Positions 27,033 through 34,334 of a stretch of 64,000 nt of DNA are shown here, piece after piece. The notes below the pieces were generated by a model that worked only from the letters and a program-made list of their open reading frames with translations, did not search any database and was not told the origin of the DNA. A program made the translations under genes and the position numbers. Position 1 is the first letter of the stretch; each line of letters begins with the position of its first letter. The stretch is taken from the NCBI RefSeq assembly GCF_000178975.2, contig NC_015057.1, forward strand, positions 124,001-188,000. Reading direction: 5' to 3'. Origin of the DNA: Granulicella tundricola MP5ACTX9 (GTDB lineage: Bacteria > Acidobacteriota > Terriglobia > Terriglobales > Acidobacteriaceae).

Positions 27033-29285
27033 TCAAACAGGGGGGAGGGGGTACCCTCCTCGATGTTGAATCCAAACCATACTAGGCGGATTCTGAGTAT
27101 TCAGAATCTGCTTAGTCTCAGCGTTCAACCCATCCTCATCCCCGTGGATATGACCAGGCGTCACCTCCCGAGCCACATCCAGATTCGCCCGCCAGTACCC
27201 CAGCACCCGCCACAACGCCGCAGGATCATCCTTCGTCTGCGCCGTCTGGCGAGCCTCCTCGGCAGCCAGGCCTTTCTCACCCAGCGCCGTGTACATCCCG
27301 GACAGCCACTTATGCGCGACCACGTCGTCCGGGTCCACCGCCAGAGCCGCCTCGAACTCCAACCTGGCTTCCGGATATCTGCGGTTTAGCAGATAGATCC
27401 ACCCCAGGTCATCATCCACCTGCCCAAACCGGGGGTACGCCCTAGCCACCGGCACCAAAGCCGCAAGAGCCTTCGCGTACTGGTACTGCCACCGGTAGCA
27501 GAGGCCCACGTAATATCGAGCTCGCATATTCTCCGGCGCGATCGCATCCGCAGCCGCAAACAGCTTCAGCGCCTCGGCATACCGACCCTGCGTGTACAGC
27601 ACAATACCCTCGTTGATACAGCCATCCGCCAGCTTGGGATACTCGACAGCCGTGCGCCGGAAAGCAGCCGCAGCCGCCGTGAACTCCTGCTTATCCAGCA
27701 GCGCAATCCCGTAGGCAGTCCACCGCACAAACGGCGTCACGGAGGAAGCCGCCGGAGGCGTCGTCTCACCCACATTCATCACCACGCTGTCCTCAGCCAT
27801 CGTGACGGTCGGATACCGGTCCTCATGCCTCGGCCCATCGTCGAACACTCAGTCCATGAACTCCCGCCGGAACCTGCGGTACTGGACTGCCCCATGCACG
27901 GTTACGCTCTTCACCCCCACCGGCACGGTGAACCGGTACCGCTCCAGATTCCGCCCGCCCCGGCCGCGCCGTACTGTCGTACGCCCGAGCCTGCACCTTC
28001 CACACCTCATGCCGGTTCAGCCGCTCCCCACTCTCCGAGAGGATCTGGTTGGTATACCGGTAAGCCTCCCCGCTCAGCCGGTGATCCACCTCCCACCCCC
28101 CCACTCTCATAAATCAACTTTCCGCGCTCATCCCGAGCCTCAAAGTGTACCCAGCACTCATAGAAGTCCCTCTGCTCCGGCACCAAACTATGCCCGATCC
28201 CCGTATTCTGCACCACCCCCGAAACCGTAACCTTCTCCCCACCCCGCACCACACCCCCCTCCAGTGGCCCTCCCACCCCAAACATATCCACCCGCAAAGC
28301 CTTGTTCCTGAGAAACTTCACCACCTCAGCCGACTGCTCCTCAAACCCATAAGCCACCGGGACAACCGTATTCGCCCCCAACCACCGGTGTGAAGCCCCC
28401 GGCGGCATGTGGCAACTCTGACAATGCTCTCGACATTCTTCGGAAAGAAAGCCATCGGACTCTGCATCGACCAGCCCGACTGCTGCCACTCGTCATACGT
28501 CGTAAACGCCCGCAACCACTTGTACCCGTTCAGCGATTGCGGCAGGTTGGCCTTATGGCAGCTCCCACAGGACTCCGGCGTCTGCAGCACACCCCGCATC
28601 ACCGCCGCCTTGTGCCTCTCCGGATGGGCCAGGATAGCCGCATTGGACGGCAGCCCCGCCACCGGCCGCCCCTCCTCATCCACCATCACCGCCGGCCGCC
28701 CCAGCACATAGCTCCCCAACCCCCGGGTCGACGTCACCCCCTGAACCGCATGAAAACTCATGCAGGTCACACCTTCTTCGTCAAAGCTTCGATCCACGTT
28801 GGACCATTCGTAAGCGCGCCGCTGAACAGCGTGACCGGGTTGTGGCACCCCTCGCAGTGCCGAGAAAACTCAACACCCTTCTGATCGATCAGCAGTTGAA
28901 CGTTCTTCTTGTACCAGACCGTCCGGAACGAGTTCGCGTGGGCCGACTCACGCCATTGCTTATAGATAGCCTTATGGCACTCCCCACACCAAGCCGCCGT
29001 CGGAACCTCGGCGGGACTTAGAAAGCCGGAAAAGGCCGCCCTCGCCTCACTTGGCAGAAACGGGCTGCTTCCGAACGGCAGCAGATAACGCGAAACATGA
29101 TCAGAGACATTGGACGAGGCGAGCGCCGCACATTTCGACGCCATCTGCCCGTGAGCCCGGTTCACAACCAGTGAACACGATAGTAGGCAAAACAATACAA
29201 GACACAGATAACGCCGGCTGTGAGGGATGCCGGTAAGGTATGGCTTTATACAAACGTCTCTGAAGAACCACGCCGGCTGATACAA
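27033..29285 (-). pseudogene. Broken multihaem cytochrome c / TPR protein
   Basis: Read from 29285 downward, one long protein is spread over several frames. It starts with a signal-peptide-like hydrophobic stretch (YLCLVLFCLLSCSLVV; the start codon is uncertain, possibly TTG 29285). CxxCH haem motifs follow: CGECH, CEGCH, then CMSFH where CMSCH is expected, CGSCH and CQSCH. The last part is a TPR region (27033-27848). Frame breaks lie near 28800 (one A lost), 28430, 28095 (a run of seven G where six keep frame) and 27925 (one G extra). A TGA at about 27849-27851 replaces the expected Trp codon before 'VFDDGPRHED'. Together these mean the gene is dead, or this stretch is badly sequenced. The intact form would be a periplasmic multihaem electron carrier. 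Confidence 0.82.
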
Positions 29286-29482: not shown

Positions 29483-32400
29483 ATGAGCAAAGTTTCGGGC
29501 GCAGTTGATCCTCTGTCCTCGCTTTCGACGCTTCAAGCAGCGTTGATTGGTGCTCGTCTGCTTTTGCTCGTAGGGTTAGCCTCCTGGTCGTGCTCCGCCT
29601 CAGCAGCTCAGCAACAGTCCACTGCAACTCAGCCCCCCCAAGACGTAACGATCCTGTCCCCCGGCTCCGTTCAAGCAATTCACCTTGCAGTCGGCGAAGC
29701 CCGGACATACAAAATCATTCTGTCTCCACAACAATCGCTGCGGCTCGTTCTCACGCAAGGCGAGCACTTCCAGAAGCTCATCCTCCATGGCCCGCGCATC
29801 ACGGGCTCCACCCGAACCAACGACTCCGGATCGGGAGCTTCAATCCCCTCCACGCTCACCAACGCCTCACCCGCAGGTAGCCCCGCCAGCGAATATACCT
29901 TGGCGATTCAGTCGTACCACTCCAATGAATCGTCCGAAGGTTCCCTCGATCTCAGTCCAGCCTCCTTCTCTCTTCCCGAGGCGCAACAACGCGCCACCGC
30001 GGAAGATCTCTTCTACGACGCGGAATACCTGCGGCGCAGCGCGAATGCAAAACAATGGCCGCACGCGAATGATGAGTTTCAACAATCCTTGAATCTGATC
30101 CAGCCACTGAAGGATCAGTACTTCACCCTGGCAATTCTGACCGAGCAATCCCGTCTCCTGCTCTTCCGTTTGAACGACTACGTGGGAGCCCAGCGCGTCG
30201 CAGCTCAGGCAGCCGCCGTCGCAGCTCAGTTGGATACAAACTCCTCGTCCGCGCTCTACAGTGACCGGTCAATCCTGACCCTCAAAGCCTTGTGCCTGAA
30301 GACCCTCGGTTCGGCTGACTACTATCTCTCCGACTACCCATCCGCGATCCTGCACTCCAATCAATCTCTCGCAATCTACCAGCAACTCAATGACCTGTAC
30401 TGGGAGGGCATCCTTCGCGGCAACCTCGCCTACGTTTATTTTGAAAGCGGCGATACTCCCGCAGCCCTTGAAACTGCAGCACGCGCATCGGCCATCGCCG
30501 ACCAGGTTCACGACGAGTATGGCCGGGTCTACACACTGGAAGCCCTTGGCTCCATCCATTTAGCCCGTGATGAATTCGATCAGGCCTACGACAGTTATCA
30601 GCAAGCGCTGACGCTCACTCGAAAGACCCCTTACCCCGCAATCGAAGCTCTCATATGGCGAGGCTTGGGAAGGTTCTACCAGGAGGTTGGCAAAGCCGAT
30701 CTCGCAGAGGACGCGTACCAGCAGGCTGTCACCTCGGCCAAGAAGGCAAGCGATACCGCGGCGCTGCTTGAAATCACGTCAGAGCTTGCTGCGTTGGAGC
30801 GCTCACAGGGAAAACTCAAAGCAGCTCATACGGCTTATGACAGCGGCATCGCGCTCTCCGGCTCCTCAAAGCTTTCGCGCGAAGCCGTACTTCTCCAGAG
30901 TGGCTTGGCCTTGACCCTGGCTGCGGAAAAGAAGCCACGCGAGGGCATTCAGCAAGCCGGACAAGCCGCCGCCTTGGCTCAATCGATCGGTTATGTTGAA
31001 GGCGAAGCGAACGCCACACGGGACCTTGCGCAGTTGTATCTGGGCTTGAAAGACCTCAAATCCGCGCGTGCGGACTATAGCCATGCAGCCCAGTTGTATG
31101 AAGGTATTCAGGATCGCGTACAGACCGCGCACGCTCTGGCCCAACTTGCCCGCATTGACGTGGCATCGGATCTTCAGCTCGCTCAGACGGAGGAGGATCA
31201 TGCACTAGACCTCATTGAAAGCACGCGTGTGCTTGTTCCAGGCCGGGAGCTTCGCACATCCTACTTCGCCGATCAACAAGGCGTCTATGCCTTCGGCATC
31301 GAACTCATGATTCGCCTCAACCGGGCCTACCCCAACAGGCACTACGTCGACCGCGCATTTCAGATTGCGGAGATGGCGAGAGCCCGCAGTTTGCTCGATC
31401 AAAGCAGCTTCTTCGCGGAGGCCGCTAACTTCTCCACTACGACTCCCTCTCCCGAGACAGCCTCCTGCGAGCTGCATCTCGCAGCAGCCTACCAACGGCT
31501 GCACGACCTGAATGTGAGCGACGAAAACGCAAACTATCGGATCACCCGCACGCAGAACGAAATTCAGGGACAGCTCGCAATTTGTGACGGCCTTGCAGGC
31601 ACCGCTCAAAGTGCCAAGCGGCAACCCGAAACCAGCCTTGCAACCCTCGATTCACTGCAACATTCTCTTTCCACTCAACACGCCTCTCTGATCGAGTATT
31701 GGCTGGGCGACGCCGAAAGCTGCCTCTGGTACATCACTGCCCACGGTGTCAAAATGCTCCCGCTTCCACCGCGCCGCCGTTTGGAAGCACAAGTCCAGAG
31801 CCTGACTGACTCTATCCTTGCAAGGCAATCGCCTATTCCGGGAGAAGATCTCGCCGCCCGCACTATCCGCCTTGAGCAATCCGATCGACGCGCTGGAGAC
31901 CTTCTTCTTCAAATGGGCAAACTTCTTCTAGGCCCGGCCTCCGGCCATCCCGCAGGCGTTCTCTATATAGTGCCAGATGGCGCTCTCGCCTCGCTGCCTT
32001 TCGCCGCGCTAACCCCGCAGTTCAAAGAGACTCCAATCCTCCTACAGGGCGAAGTCATTGAAGAGCCTTCGTCTTCTGTCCTCCTGCATCTCCTTGACAT
32101 CCATGCAAATTCCGGAGGCCACCCATCGTCTCCTTATGCTGCCATCGCTATCTTCGCAGACCCCGTTTATGCAGCCGATGATGAACGTTTGCCACATCAG
32201 CCCGCTCATCTGTCCCAGACCGCGCTCCGCTCCGCGTTTGTCCTTCCTGAGCTCGCACGTCTGCCCGCATCCCGCGCGGAGGCAGACTCGATCGCGTCTC
32301 TCGCCTCCGGTAGCAGCGTTGAAACGCATATCGGCTTCGATGCCTCATCCCACGCCATCCTGAGCACGGATTGGAGCCGCTATCAGGTCATGCATCTTGC

Positions 32401-32830
32401 CCTCCACGCTCTCATCGGGCAGTCACCGGCCTTCACCGGCATCGCCTTCAGCATGTTTGGCAGATCCGGTCGCACCCAAAACGGGATGCTCTGGCTCAAT
32501 CAGATCTACCGCCTCAAGGGCGCGCCGGGCATGGTCTTCCTCAGCGCCTGCAGTACCGCAGCTGGAAAGGAAATTCCAGGAGAAGGCATCGACAGTCTTG
32601 CCAACGCCTTCCTCTCCCATGGCTCTCAAAGCGTCATCGCCTCTCTCTGGAGCGTTGAGGATCAGGCCTCGAGCCAGCTTGTGCGAGACTTCTACTACAA
32701 CCTGCTCACGTTACATCTGCCCCCGGGCGCTTCCTTGCGCCGCGCGCAACTCTCATTTGTCCATTCCACTCAGCACCGCTCGCCGCTTTATTGGGCCGCG
32801 TTTCAACTTGAAGGTCTCCCGGGAAACTGA
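29483..32830 (+). CDS. Exported TPR-CHAT (caspase-like) protein
   Basis: This is a 1115-residue protein. An N-terminal signal peptide (about 20-43, 'ARLLLLVGLASWSCSASA') predicts export. Residues about 60-145 form a beta-rich domain resembling the pre-peptidase type. About 160-560 are tetratricopeptide repeats. A helical linker follows, and then a C-terminal CHAT domain (about 780-1115), a clan CD cysteine peptidase fold. The catalytic pair is present: His975 in 'MHLALHAL' and Cys1023 in 'FLSACSTAAG', with the family's 'GEGIDSLANAF' and 'SVIASLWSVED' motifs. It is therefore probably an active protease, with TPRs for partner or substrate recognition. The sigma-like gene begins on the very next base after its stop, so the two are co-translated. 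Its export places it on the same side of the membrane as the C-terminal domain of the anti-sigma protein two genes on. Confidence 0.9.
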   Translation: MSKVSGAVDPLSSLSTLQAALIGARLLLLVGLASWSCSASAAQQQSTATQPPQDVTILSPGSVQAIHLAVGEARTYKIILSPQQSLRLVLTQGEHFQKLILHGPRITGSTRTNDSGSGASIPSTLTNASPAGSPASEYTLAIQSYHSNESSEGSLDLSPASFSLPEAQQRATAEDLFYDAEYLRRSANAKQWPHANDEFQQSLNLIQPLKDQYFTLAILTEQSRLLLFRLNDYVGAQRVAAQAAAVAAQLDTNSSSALYSDRSILTLKALCLKTLGSADYYLSDYPSAILHSNQSLAIYQQLNDLYWEGILRGNLAYVYFESGDTPAALETAARASAIADQVHDEYGRVYTLEALGSIHLARDEFDQAYDSYQQALTLTRKTPYPAIEALIWRGLGRFYQEVGKADLAEDAYQQAVTSAKKASDTAALLEITSELAALERSQGKLKAAHTAYDSGIALSGSSKLSREAVLLQSGLALTLAAEKKPREGIQQAGQAAALAQSIGYVEGEANATRDLAQLYLGLKDLKSARADYSHAAQLYEGIQDRVQTAHALAQLARIDVASDLQLAQTEEDHALDLIESTRVLVPGRELRTSYFADQQGVYAFGIELMIRLNRAYPNRHYVDRAFQIAEMARARSLLDQSSFFAEAANFSTTTPSPETASCELHLAAAYQRLHDLNVSDENANYRITRTQNEIQGQLAICDGLAGTAQSAKRQPETSLATLDSLQHSLSTQHASLIEYWLGDAESCLWYITAHGVKMLPLPPRRRLEAQVQSLTDSILARQSPIPGEDLAARTIRLEQSDRRAGDLLLQMGKLLLGPASGHPAGVLYIVPDGALASLPFAALTPQFKETPILLQGEVIEEPSSSVLLHLLDIHANSGGHPSSPYAAIAIFADPVYAADDERLPHQPAHLSQTALRSAFVLPELARLPASRAEADSIASLASGSSVETHIGFDASSHAILSTDWSRYQVMHLALHALIGQSPAFTGIAFSMFGRSGRTQNGMLWLNQIYRLKGAPGMVFLSACSTAAGKEIPGEGIDSLANAFLSHGSQSVIASLWSVEDQASSQLVRDFYYNLLTLHLPPGASLRRAQLSFVHSTQHRSPLYWAAFQLEGLPGN

Positions 32831-33499
32831 ATGTCCCCTGATAAATCTTCTGCCTTAGGAGCCGAGCAAGCCCAGCCCAAAGCTCCGCCTATCGCCAGGC
32901 GGGTCTGGAGCCTTGATCGGGCGGCGCTGGCATCGCTCCTGCTTGTGCTTGATGGAGATCCAGACCAGGCTGCCGTGGCCTACGAGGCGCTTCGCCAGAG
33001 ACTCATCCGTTTTTTTCATCTCCATCAGGTCAGCGATACTGACGGCTTCACGGATATCTGCCTCGATCGTCTGGCAAGGCGCATCCACCAGGGTTTAGTA
33101 GTAGAAAGTCCGCTGAGCTACGCAGTCGGCATCGCTCGCATGCTCTTAAGAGAAGAGCGGACCGCACAGCGCCGTAGGGAGACCATGATTGAGGATTTCT
33201 CCCGTCTTGGCCCGGGTCACCTGACAGAGGAGGTCATGATCCAGGGGATCAGCCTCCCTAACCTCGAGCAATACCTTGAACACTGTCTTCAACATCTGGC
33301 TCCCGTTCAGAGAAAACAGATCCTGCTCTATTACAGCGCCACCGCCCGGGAAGGCATCGACATTCGTCAGCAGATGGCCGCGGAAAGTGATCTGTCCCTC
33401 AACACTTTCCGCAATCGAATGCTGCGCCTCCGTAAGCTCCTGGAAGATTGCTTGCGAAAACGCATCGCCGCCCAGGACCTGAAGCGCCCACCCTTGTGA
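32831..33499 (+). CDS. Sigma-70-like (ECF-type) factor
   Basis: This 222-residue cytosolic protein starts directly after the CHAT stop (TGA then ATG). The middle ('FTDICLDRLARRIHQG...SPLSYAVGIARMLLREE') matches sigma region 2 of an ECF-like family common in Acidobacteria ('DP..Y.YGVARNVL' type). The C-terminus ('CLQHLAPVQRKQILLYYSA...IDIRQQMAAE...LNTFRNRMLRLRKLLEDCL') matches its region 4 helix-turn-helix. It would direct RNA polymerase to a small regulon, probably including its own operon. The pairing with an anti-sigma-like membrane protein 40 bases downstream is typical of such factors. Sequence divergence is considerable, so loss of promoter activity cannot be excluded. Confidence 0.75.
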   Translation: MSPDKSSALGAEQAQPKAPPIARRVWSLDRAALASLLLVLDGDPDQAAVAYEALRQRLIRFFHLHQVSDTDGFTDICLDRLARRIHQGLVVESPLSYAVGIARMLLREERTAQRRRETMIEDFSRLGPGHLTEEVMIQGISLPNLEQYLEHCLQHLAPVQRKQILLYYSATAREGIDIRQQMAAESDLSLNTFRNRMLRLRKLLEDCLRKRIAAQDLKRPPL

Positions 33500-33539
33500 T
33501 GCTTAGGCGAATTTTGCCACATACTTCAGAAAGGCTTTA

Positions 33540-34334
33540 ATGATTGTTCCCACCAATCCCGAAGAACGGATAGACCTGGTACTCGATTACCTGCTCGACG
33601 AACTCCCCCAGTCGCAAATCGAAGCCATGGACAATGCACTTTTTGAAAGCGAAGATCTGGCCTCCGTCTTTGCCGAATATAAAGTTGACCTGATCGACGC
33701 CTACGCCGACGGCCGTCTCTCGCCGACGCAGCACCAACGCTTCGAGCGCATGCTCCTCATCGATCTAAACCTGCGCGCGCTCACACCTTTCGCGCACGCC
33801 CTAAGCTCCATGCGAGCCCATGCAGCAGAAGCCCCGCATCAGCGCCCAAAGAGCCAGGCCCGAAGCAAGCTCGCTTACGGCGCCGCCGCGCTGATCGCAA
33901 TCGCTGCAACCCTGATTGCAGTCATCTTCACTCATCGTCCGCATCCGGTTCCCGCCTCCAACCCACAGCCCCCAACCGTGATCGCAGCGAACAACCCTCC
34001 TCGTCAGGGCTCTATCTATCCCGTCATCCTCTCTCCGGCTATCCTCCGGGGGCATGCTGATTCCGATGTCCATATACCTGCCTCGGCTGACCAGGTGAGA
34101 CTGCAGATTCTCCTGCCGGCTGAAAGCGACAAGCTTCAATACACTGCCTCGCTCCGGGGGAAAAGCCATTCCTTCCAGAGCACGTTTTACAACCTGCGGC
34201 CCATTCAAGCAGGAGTGGAGAGGTACATCGAAGTCACTATACCTTCGGGCGATCTTCAACCGGGCGCATACGAGTTAAGCGTCTCCGATCAGAGCGGACT
34301 GCCGGTCCACAAGTATCCCTTGAAGATCACCTAG
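33540..34334 (+). CDS. Membrane anti-sigma-like protein
   Basis: The 264 residues fall into three parts. The N-terminal cytosolic part (1-100) has the pattern of acidobacterial anti-sigma-like proteins ('DYLLDELPQSQIEAMDNALF', 'DLIDAYADGRLSPTQHQRFE') without the zinc HxxxCxxC motif. One transmembrane helix covers about 111-130 (LAYGAAALIAIAATLIAVIF). A periplasmic beta-sandwich-like domain follows (about 160-264, 'VRLQILLPAESDKLQYT', 'GDLQPGAYELSV'). AAAGG stands before the start. It probably holds the sigma-like protein at the membrane until a periplasmic signal or cut releases it, for which the exported CHAT protease of the same operon is an obvious candidate. That link is inference. The gene ends just before the convergent GH43 gene. 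Confidence 0.72.
   Translation: MIVPTNPEERIDLVLDYLLDELPQSQIEAMDNALFESEDLASVFAEYKVDLIDAYADGRLSPTQHQRFERMLLIDLNLRALTPFAHALSSMRAHAAEAPHQRPKSQARSKLAYGAAALIAIAATLIAVIFTHRPHPVPASNPQPPTVIAANNPPRQGSIYPVILSPAILRGHADSDVHIPASADQVRLQILLPAESDKLQYTASLRGKSHSFQSTFYNLRPIQAGVERYIEVTIPSGDLQPGAYELSVSDQSGLPVHKYPLKIT

Follow-up and report, generated by a model that had tools for sequence, protein, structure and literature searches.

An exported-looking TPR-CHAT protein linked to a sigma factor and a membrane anti-sigma factor in Acidobacteriota: a possible proteolytic transcription switch

Why should the gene of a caspase-clan protease that looks exported share a locus with the genes of a sigma factor and its putative membrane inhibitor? 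The question is raised by a stretch of 64,000 nucleotides from Granulicella tundricola MP5ACTX9 (contig NC_015057.1, positions 124,001 to 188,000), hereafter the window, whose first letter is position 1. Three open reading frames (ORFs) on its plus strand (29483-34334), which carries every feature of the trio given below, encode a protein with tetratricopeptide repeats (TPRs) and a CHAT domain (29483..32830, 1115 aa), a sigma factor of the extracytoplasmic function (ECF) type (32831..33499, 222 aa) and a membrane anti-sigma factor (33540..34334, 264 aa). The sigma ORF begins one base past the CHAT stop codon, and 40 bases lie between the sigma and anti-sigma ORFs, so that the tight linkage noted in an earlier sequence-only reading of this DNA is borne out by the coordinates.

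Our analysis points, with a probability of about one half, to an envelope module in which the exported TPR-CHAT protein would act as both sensor and first protease, cutting the periplasmic domain of the anti-sigma factor and freeing the sigma factor. As the trio recurs widely in Acidobacteriota, this release may be set off from outside by the protease, and the trio would be a variant of the ECF/anti-sigma pair with possibly a new type of site-1 protease.

Conservation of the three-gene linkage

In order to establish how regularly the three genes occur together, we compared gene neighbourhoods in the family and the phylum. Within the family, 71 of 100 genomes gave a match to the CHAT protein (in some cases only to the TPRs), whereas the sigma factor and the anti-sigma factor were each found in six. 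These were the identical six genomes, and at all nine places of the anti-sigma factor (9/9) matches to the sigma factor and CHAT adjoined it. The window's own genome holds a single CHAT-domain match. With profile A3, made from the periplasmic domain only, we found 25 places in the family; 13 lay outside the seed, and CHAT adjoined 11 of these 13.

A further profile of this domain (A5), drawn from the window's layout and a sister layout described below and itself built from CHAT-linked domains, matched in 61 of 297 phylum genomes. We took the best 80 new loci, that is, the best of 110 places down to E 4.7e-7, minus G000, G006:C1 and G095. CHAT lay within 4 kb in 62 of the 80 and within 1 kb in 57, gene fragments such as those at L127 and L160 included; a sigma gene lay within 300 bp in 71, and both CHAT and sigma were present in 58. 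The 80 loci do not amount to 80 independent events, because several share one genome (G362 above all). Gene order varied considerably (n=81): 38 loci read CHAT-sigma-anti-sigma, 36 read sigma-anti-sigma-CHAT, and seven had CHAT on the opposite strand. Since order and strand vary and yet the linkage persists, the neighbourhood is probably functional, not merely inherited.

Searching in the opposite direction, with CHAT as the starting point in named genomes, yielded 79 loci from the best 80 matches. Outside the cyanobacteria, 28 loci had 1.7 kb or more of sequence beyond the gene; 20 of them carried a sigma gene and an anti-sigma factor with the periplasmic domain within 4 kb, one carried a sigma gene alone and seven neither; at nine further non-cyanobacterial loci with short ends, at least a sigma gene was visible in five. 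Neither partner was found at any of the 42 cyanobacterial loci (0/42). The trio was present in records of Blastocatellia, Pyrinomonadaceae, Thermoanaerobaculia, Holophagales, Chloracidobacterium and Acidobacteriaceae. The pairing, whose conservation in relatives the earlier reading had proposed to check in this way, thus holds phylum-wide in both directions of search. In a quick tree of 61 CHAT rows, five sister-layout CHATs were set apart by a long branch of their own (length 2.67, Shimodaira-Hasegawa-like approximate likelihood-ratio test 100). The module label required at least six changes on this tree, compared with a shuffle mean of 17.9; 14 of the 42 cyanobacterial CHATs were included, four contig-truncated loci were left unlabelled, and five loci with a sigma gene and an incomplete anti-sigma gene were labelled as module.

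Features of the three proteins

The first protein belongs to the CHAT peptidase family, with a PF12770 score of 158 bits against a cut-off of 24 and a His/Cys dyad in its CHAT protease domain (residues 812-1111, 31916..32815). Among 83 longer CHAT proteins of the module, aligned and also used for the counts of N-termini, Cys1023 (32549..32551) was Cys in 83/83 and His975 (32405..32407) was His in 82/83, with one gap. The AlphaFold2 (AF2) model was confident as a whole (predicted local distance difference test, pLDDT, 86.8), with a loop just past Cys1023 (residues 1025-1033) below 50. It places a signal-peptide-like hydrophobic helix at residues 13-38 (29519..29596), a beta-sandwich at 55-160 (29645..29962) and, in agreement with Pfam, a TPR superhelix at 164-582 (29972..31228). 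Under a strict rule, signal-like N-termini occurred in 73/83 module CHATs as against 42/333 control windows taken from the interior; the protein encoded in the window itself passed the hydrophobicity part of the rule and failed the rest, having no basic residue just upstream. Judged by sequence, the module CHAT proteins therefore look exported and, with their intact dyad, active. The sequence-only reading had described the protein in these terms and had held that a cytosolic or inactive CHAT would refute it; the sequences point to neither.

The closest structural match of the CHAT model was Csx29 (7y9x_B, Z 30.3, root-mean-square deviation, rmsd, 8.6 over 566 residues), and separases were also among its best matches, with the protease domain of Chaetomium separase (5fby_A) at Z 26.8 and an rmsd of 3.6 over 335 residues. 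The TPR superhelix matched, among others, Rap, NprR and TPR chains of APC/C. We also considered whether the N-terminal beta-sandwich might be a decoy copy of the periplasmic domain of the anti-sigma factor, and rejected this at an hhalign probability of 0.2%.

The second protein is, by family alignment, a divergent ECF-type sigma factor. On its own it scored weakly, with 14.7 bits for Pfam region 4, which is under the cut-off, and 40.2 bits for NCBIfam TIGR02989, whose cut-off is 124.55. The alignment of its family matched ECF sigma factors of solved structure, RpoE (2q1z) at E 8e-7 and SigL at 5e-6, and so upholds the sigma-like assignment made earlier.

The third protein has the architecture of a membrane anti-sigma factor, and here too the model agrees with the first description: a helical cytosolic region (residues 7-97, 33558..33830), a single transmembrane helix (112-130, 33873..33929), a linker and a periplasmic beta-sandwich (159-263, 34014..34328), hereafter the beta-domain, which adjoins CHAT genes phylum-wide. 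The zf-HC2 score was borderline, at 22.3 bits where the cut-off is 22.2, and HxxxCxxC, the zinc-ligand motif of zf-HC2/ASD-type anti-sigma factors, was absent. Because the protein has no Cys at all, we regard it as ASD-like without zinc; the motif does occur in anti-sigma factors of the sister layout, e.g. at L088. For the beta-domain, searches for a known fold returned generic sandwiches only (Foldseek best E 3e-4, TM < 0.5; VIA best Z 8.7).

Within the beta-domain, one residue was conserved above all others. R170 (Arg codon 34047-34049) was R in 111 and K in 3 of 117 aligned sequences, the next best position reaching 87%, and the residue after it was small (G/S/D/A/N) in 114/117. The alignment was made from 102 beta-domain proteins, minus L137, L173 and L181 (< 190 or > 620 aa), and 18 of 20 sequences from named records, the other two being duplicates of unnamed loci. 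R170 and G171 lie in a flexible loop between two strands (residues 168-172, 34041..34055), the sole run of at least three residues with pLDDT < 50 in the anti-sigma model. That an Arg is conserved in so mobile a loop suggests that a partner recognises it, so that the loop is a candidate cut site or docking motif, two roles that the model does not distinguish.

A possible proteolytic switch and its rivals

From these features we infer the following chain of events. At rest, the ECF sigma factor would be kept at the inner membrane by the anti-sigma factor anchored there. The caspase/separase-like CHAT domain would be switched on by a signal, which may be a ligand bound to the TPR superhelix; it would then bind the anti-sigma factor and cut its periplasmic beta-sandwich, with the exposed loop, after R170, as the most probable site. 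The rest of the anti-sigma factor would be removed by an M50 site-2 protease together with proteases of the cytosol, and the sigma factor would be released; in the sister layout, this factor apparently drives its own locus as well. The proposal gains support from the Csx29-like and separase-like fold, which is that of real proteases, and from the precedent of Csx29, Csx30 and CASP-sigma as described in PMC10028731. For the second step, the window's genome offers four PF02163 matches (best E 1.3e-62); this is weak support, because such matches were present in all 14 control genomes too.

That the beta-domain itself is the partner of CHAT is suggested by loci with exchanged parts. At L055 in genome G029, it stays beside CHAT with another ECF type and a zinc-type anti-sigma region. 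At L051 (4360-6186), a 608-aa transmembrane protein ends in the beta-domain, with no anti-sigma region and no sigma gene on the 10.4-kb contig; it lies 21 bases from a convergent CHAT gene, which reads in several ORFs. Co-variation among paralogues was assessed over 57 within-genome pairs from 75 modules that passed the length and distance limits, with 2000 shuffles. The distances of CHAT followed those of the beta-domain (rho 0.19, 9/2000 shuffles as high) and, more weakly, those of the sigma factor (113/2000) and of the cytosolic part (154/2000); the cytosolic part and the sigma factor co-varied strongly (rho 0.73, 2/2000).

Several results weigh against this reading. The co-variation of CHAT and beta-domain is suggestive at best in so few pairs, and the beta-domain tracks the sigma factor more strongly than it tracks CHAT (rho 0.52, 5/2000). 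No CHAT lay within 4 kb in 18 of the 80 phylum loci, some of them on short contigs, and at L087 (7847-8872) a 341-aa transmembrane protein carries the beta-domain without an anti-sigma part and without a CHAT in 16 kb. The linker at residues 131-150 is nearly as flexible as the R170 loop (pLDDT block means 55 and 50), and therefore the cut could fall there. The Arg is kept equally without a CHAT within 4 kb (16/17) and with one (77/82), so that we rejected a dependence of its conservation on a neighbouring CHAT; the sister-layout anti-sigma factors at L098 and L099 carry Trp in its place beside an intact CHAT. In separase, by the account in PMC9729208, the Asp D2151 reads the P1 Arg; the counted equivalent in CHAT, position 1064, holds mostly other residues (A 39, P 21, R 7, S 5 of 83), by an offset counted from the catalytic Cys of separase. 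A conserved acid, D1060 (D/E in 82/83), stands four residues before it. As the Asp is not kept at the counted position, a separase-type P1-Arg pocket was not confirmed. Finally, a CHAT gene within a sigma operon fits an effector role as well.

For the effector role, the data come from the sister layout, which came to light among the 13 further places of profile A3 and consists of an ECF sigma factor, an anti-sigma factor with the zinc motif, a protein of about 290 aa and CHAT, several with a lipobox-like N-terminus. The regions upstream of its sigma genes share an ECF-type promoter-like motif, TGAAACG-N16-CACTA, which was present at least once in 15/22 sister-layout loci, the same loci in which it had been discovered, and was absent from 247 kb of control loci. 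By manual reading, a copy facing the sigma or anti-sigma gene stood upstream of CHAT in 11/22; several loci had a copy after CHAT, and in five (L088, L091, L093, L096, L114) the copy beside the sigma gene pointed away from it. Across whole genomes, we counted 49 copies in 16 sister-layout genomes (26 of them at the locus) as against one in 14 other genomes of the family. The backward pattern gave 15 and 10 matches in the same two sets, so that the 23 copies outside the locus are little above background. This distribution fits an ECF sigma factor that acts mainly on its own locus in the sister layout. In the window's own CHAT-first layout, no shared motif rose above shuffles in 37 upstream regions.

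Three other explanations deserve to be weighed with these data. The sigma and anti-sigma factors might sense envelope stress in some other manner, with CHAT as a target gene whose exported product acts on other envelope proteins. Regulator and output commonly share an operon, and the motif (15/22 loci, 11/22 facing the sigma or anti-sigma gene upstream of CHAT; 49 copies against one) agrees with such an arrangement. It is harder to reconcile with the seven of 81 loci in which CHAT lies on the strand opposite to sigma and linkage is still kept, with L051, where the beta-domain adjoins CHAT without a sigma gene, with the closer co-variation of CHAT with the periplasmic domain than with the other parts, and with the five motif copies that point away; we consider this explanation unlikely, albeit a serious competitor. 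In a different arrangement, CHAT would not cut at all; as a sensor or shield in the periplasm, it would bind the beta-domain, with R170 as docking site or pseudo-substrate, and gate an ordinary site-1 protease, much as RseB controls the access of the site-1 protease to RseA. The long TPR solenoid with the ligand-binding Rap and NprR chains among its matches, the conservation of R170, which suits a binding motif equally well, and the missing separase-type Asp are all compatible with this. The strictness with which Cys1023 (83/83) and His975 (82/83) are kept is hardly expected of a mere binder, and makes the arrangement rather improbable.

A chance neighbourhood or an assembly quirk of a single genome, to which the commonness of CHAT relatives in the family (71/100) might lend some colour, can be dismissed almost entirely: it is refuted by the confinement of sigma and anti-sigma factor to the same 6/100 genomes, with CHAT beside all nine anti-sigma places, by the three genes together at 58 of 80 phylum loci and by the reverse search from CHAT.

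The proteolytic reading can also be put in a wider and bolder form, which we offer tentatively: throughout Acidobacteriota, exported, separase-like TPR-CHAT proteins would make up a class of envelope signalling, serving as sensor and site-1 protease of ECF sigma pathways and cutting membrane anti-sigma factors after the near-invariant Arg of a dedicated beta-sandwich. Such a class would be the equivalent of Craspase in the periplasm, free of CRISPR, and some genomes would have several of its channels side by side. If proteolytic release holds, transcription in a major soil phylum would be triggered directly at the cell surface by proteases of the caspase/separase type. Many bacterial CHAT genes would then have a function open to test and a definite substrate, and there would be an evolutionary setting for the switch formed by Csx29, Csx30 and sigma factor in type III-E CRISPR. 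Thanks to the prediction about R170, two mutants, one of the substrate and the other of the protease, would be enough to put the question to the test.

Related systems and further observations

In type III-E CRISPR, as reported in PMC10028731 and PMC9729208, Csx29 cuts Csx30, an inhibitor of the sigma factor CASP-sigma. As there, protease, sigma factor and inhibitor share one locus in our trio, and a cut in the inhibitor is proposed to control the sigma factor; in contrast to the cytosolic, RNA-guided Csx29, CHAT here looks exported and the inhibitor is a membrane anti-sigma factor. We rejected membership in type III-E CRISPR, since the Csx29 model scored 16.5 bits against 300 and the CASP-sigma model 17.1 against 100, and the Csx30 model was absent among the model matches of the trio proteins. 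PADLOC, run on the trio and four neighbours, gave no convincing cas gene; its matches there and in three sister-layout proteins were mostly TPR-driven or weak. The TPRs of one neighbour matched a PrimPol model (E 4e-10), and the CHAT region of P0001 matched a model named BovA (24.4 bits, E 2.4e-6).

The trio resembles RseA/DegS/RseP proteolysis in its membrane anti-sigma factor with a periplasmic domain, its ECF sigma factor and the M50 peptidases in the genome. It differs in that a caspase-clan Cys protease adjoins the pair, whereas the site-1 proteases listed in a review are serine enzymes, DegS, DegP, SipS/T and Prc (PMC7593790). Around ECF54 sigma factors, CHAT-domain proteins form part of a conserved gene neighbourhood, and control by proteolysis has been put forward (PMC8999054); unlike in that account, a membrane anti-sigma factor belongs to the trio here. 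Myxococcus and other bacteria have metacaspase genes in conserved operons with sigma-70 genes (PMC3501461), a like combination of a caspase-family gene and a sigma factor, but the passage concerned deals with Peptidase C14 metacaspases, not CHAT, and names no anti-sigma factor. Eukaryotic separase shares the fold of the protease domain and the union of helical repeats with a protease; the CHAT protein here is bacterial and exported-looking, and the Asp for P1 Arg is not at the counted position. For the trio of exported CHAT and membrane anti-sigma factor, no description was found in searches of an openly licensed library. The earlier remark that no characterised system with this layout was known thus stands for the trio, and needs amending for its parts, as caspase/sigma operons (PMC3501461) and the CHAT-ECF54 context (PMC8999054) are in print.

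Some genomes carry parallel modules. G029 has them at L048, L049, L052-L055 and L090, with 13 CHAT-protein matches; G362 (L107, L111, L140 and others) has 13 beta-domain matches, and G094 is also multi-copy. In G034, from the window's genus, another pairing of like kinds of parts occurs at L061 (3833-8198), where CHAT is followed by a different ECF sigma factor and a transmembrane protein with weak anti-sigma/TPR similarity. Bins labelled Proteobacteria/Steroidobacteraceae also carry the module, complete at L222 and cut by contig ends at L187, L189 and L201; transfer and mis-binning cannot be told apart there.

The sister-layout protein of about 290 aa was located at L088 (2849-3685), L090 (5739-6602), L095 (7014-7895), L096 (8278-9141), L098 (8924-9847) and L102 (5078-5965), and the three scanned (L088, L090, L102) had no Pfam match. 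The promoter-like motif often occurred in at least two copies per locus, with examples at L110:6610, L110:11588 and L098:11566. Upstream of the trio, on the minus strand of the window at 27033-29285, several ORFs that overlap in different frames (28767-29285, 28318-28848, 28007-28489, 27823-28110 and 27033-27848) resemble a single multihaem cytochrome/TPR protein with several frameshifts, either a pseudogene or the product of sequence errors.

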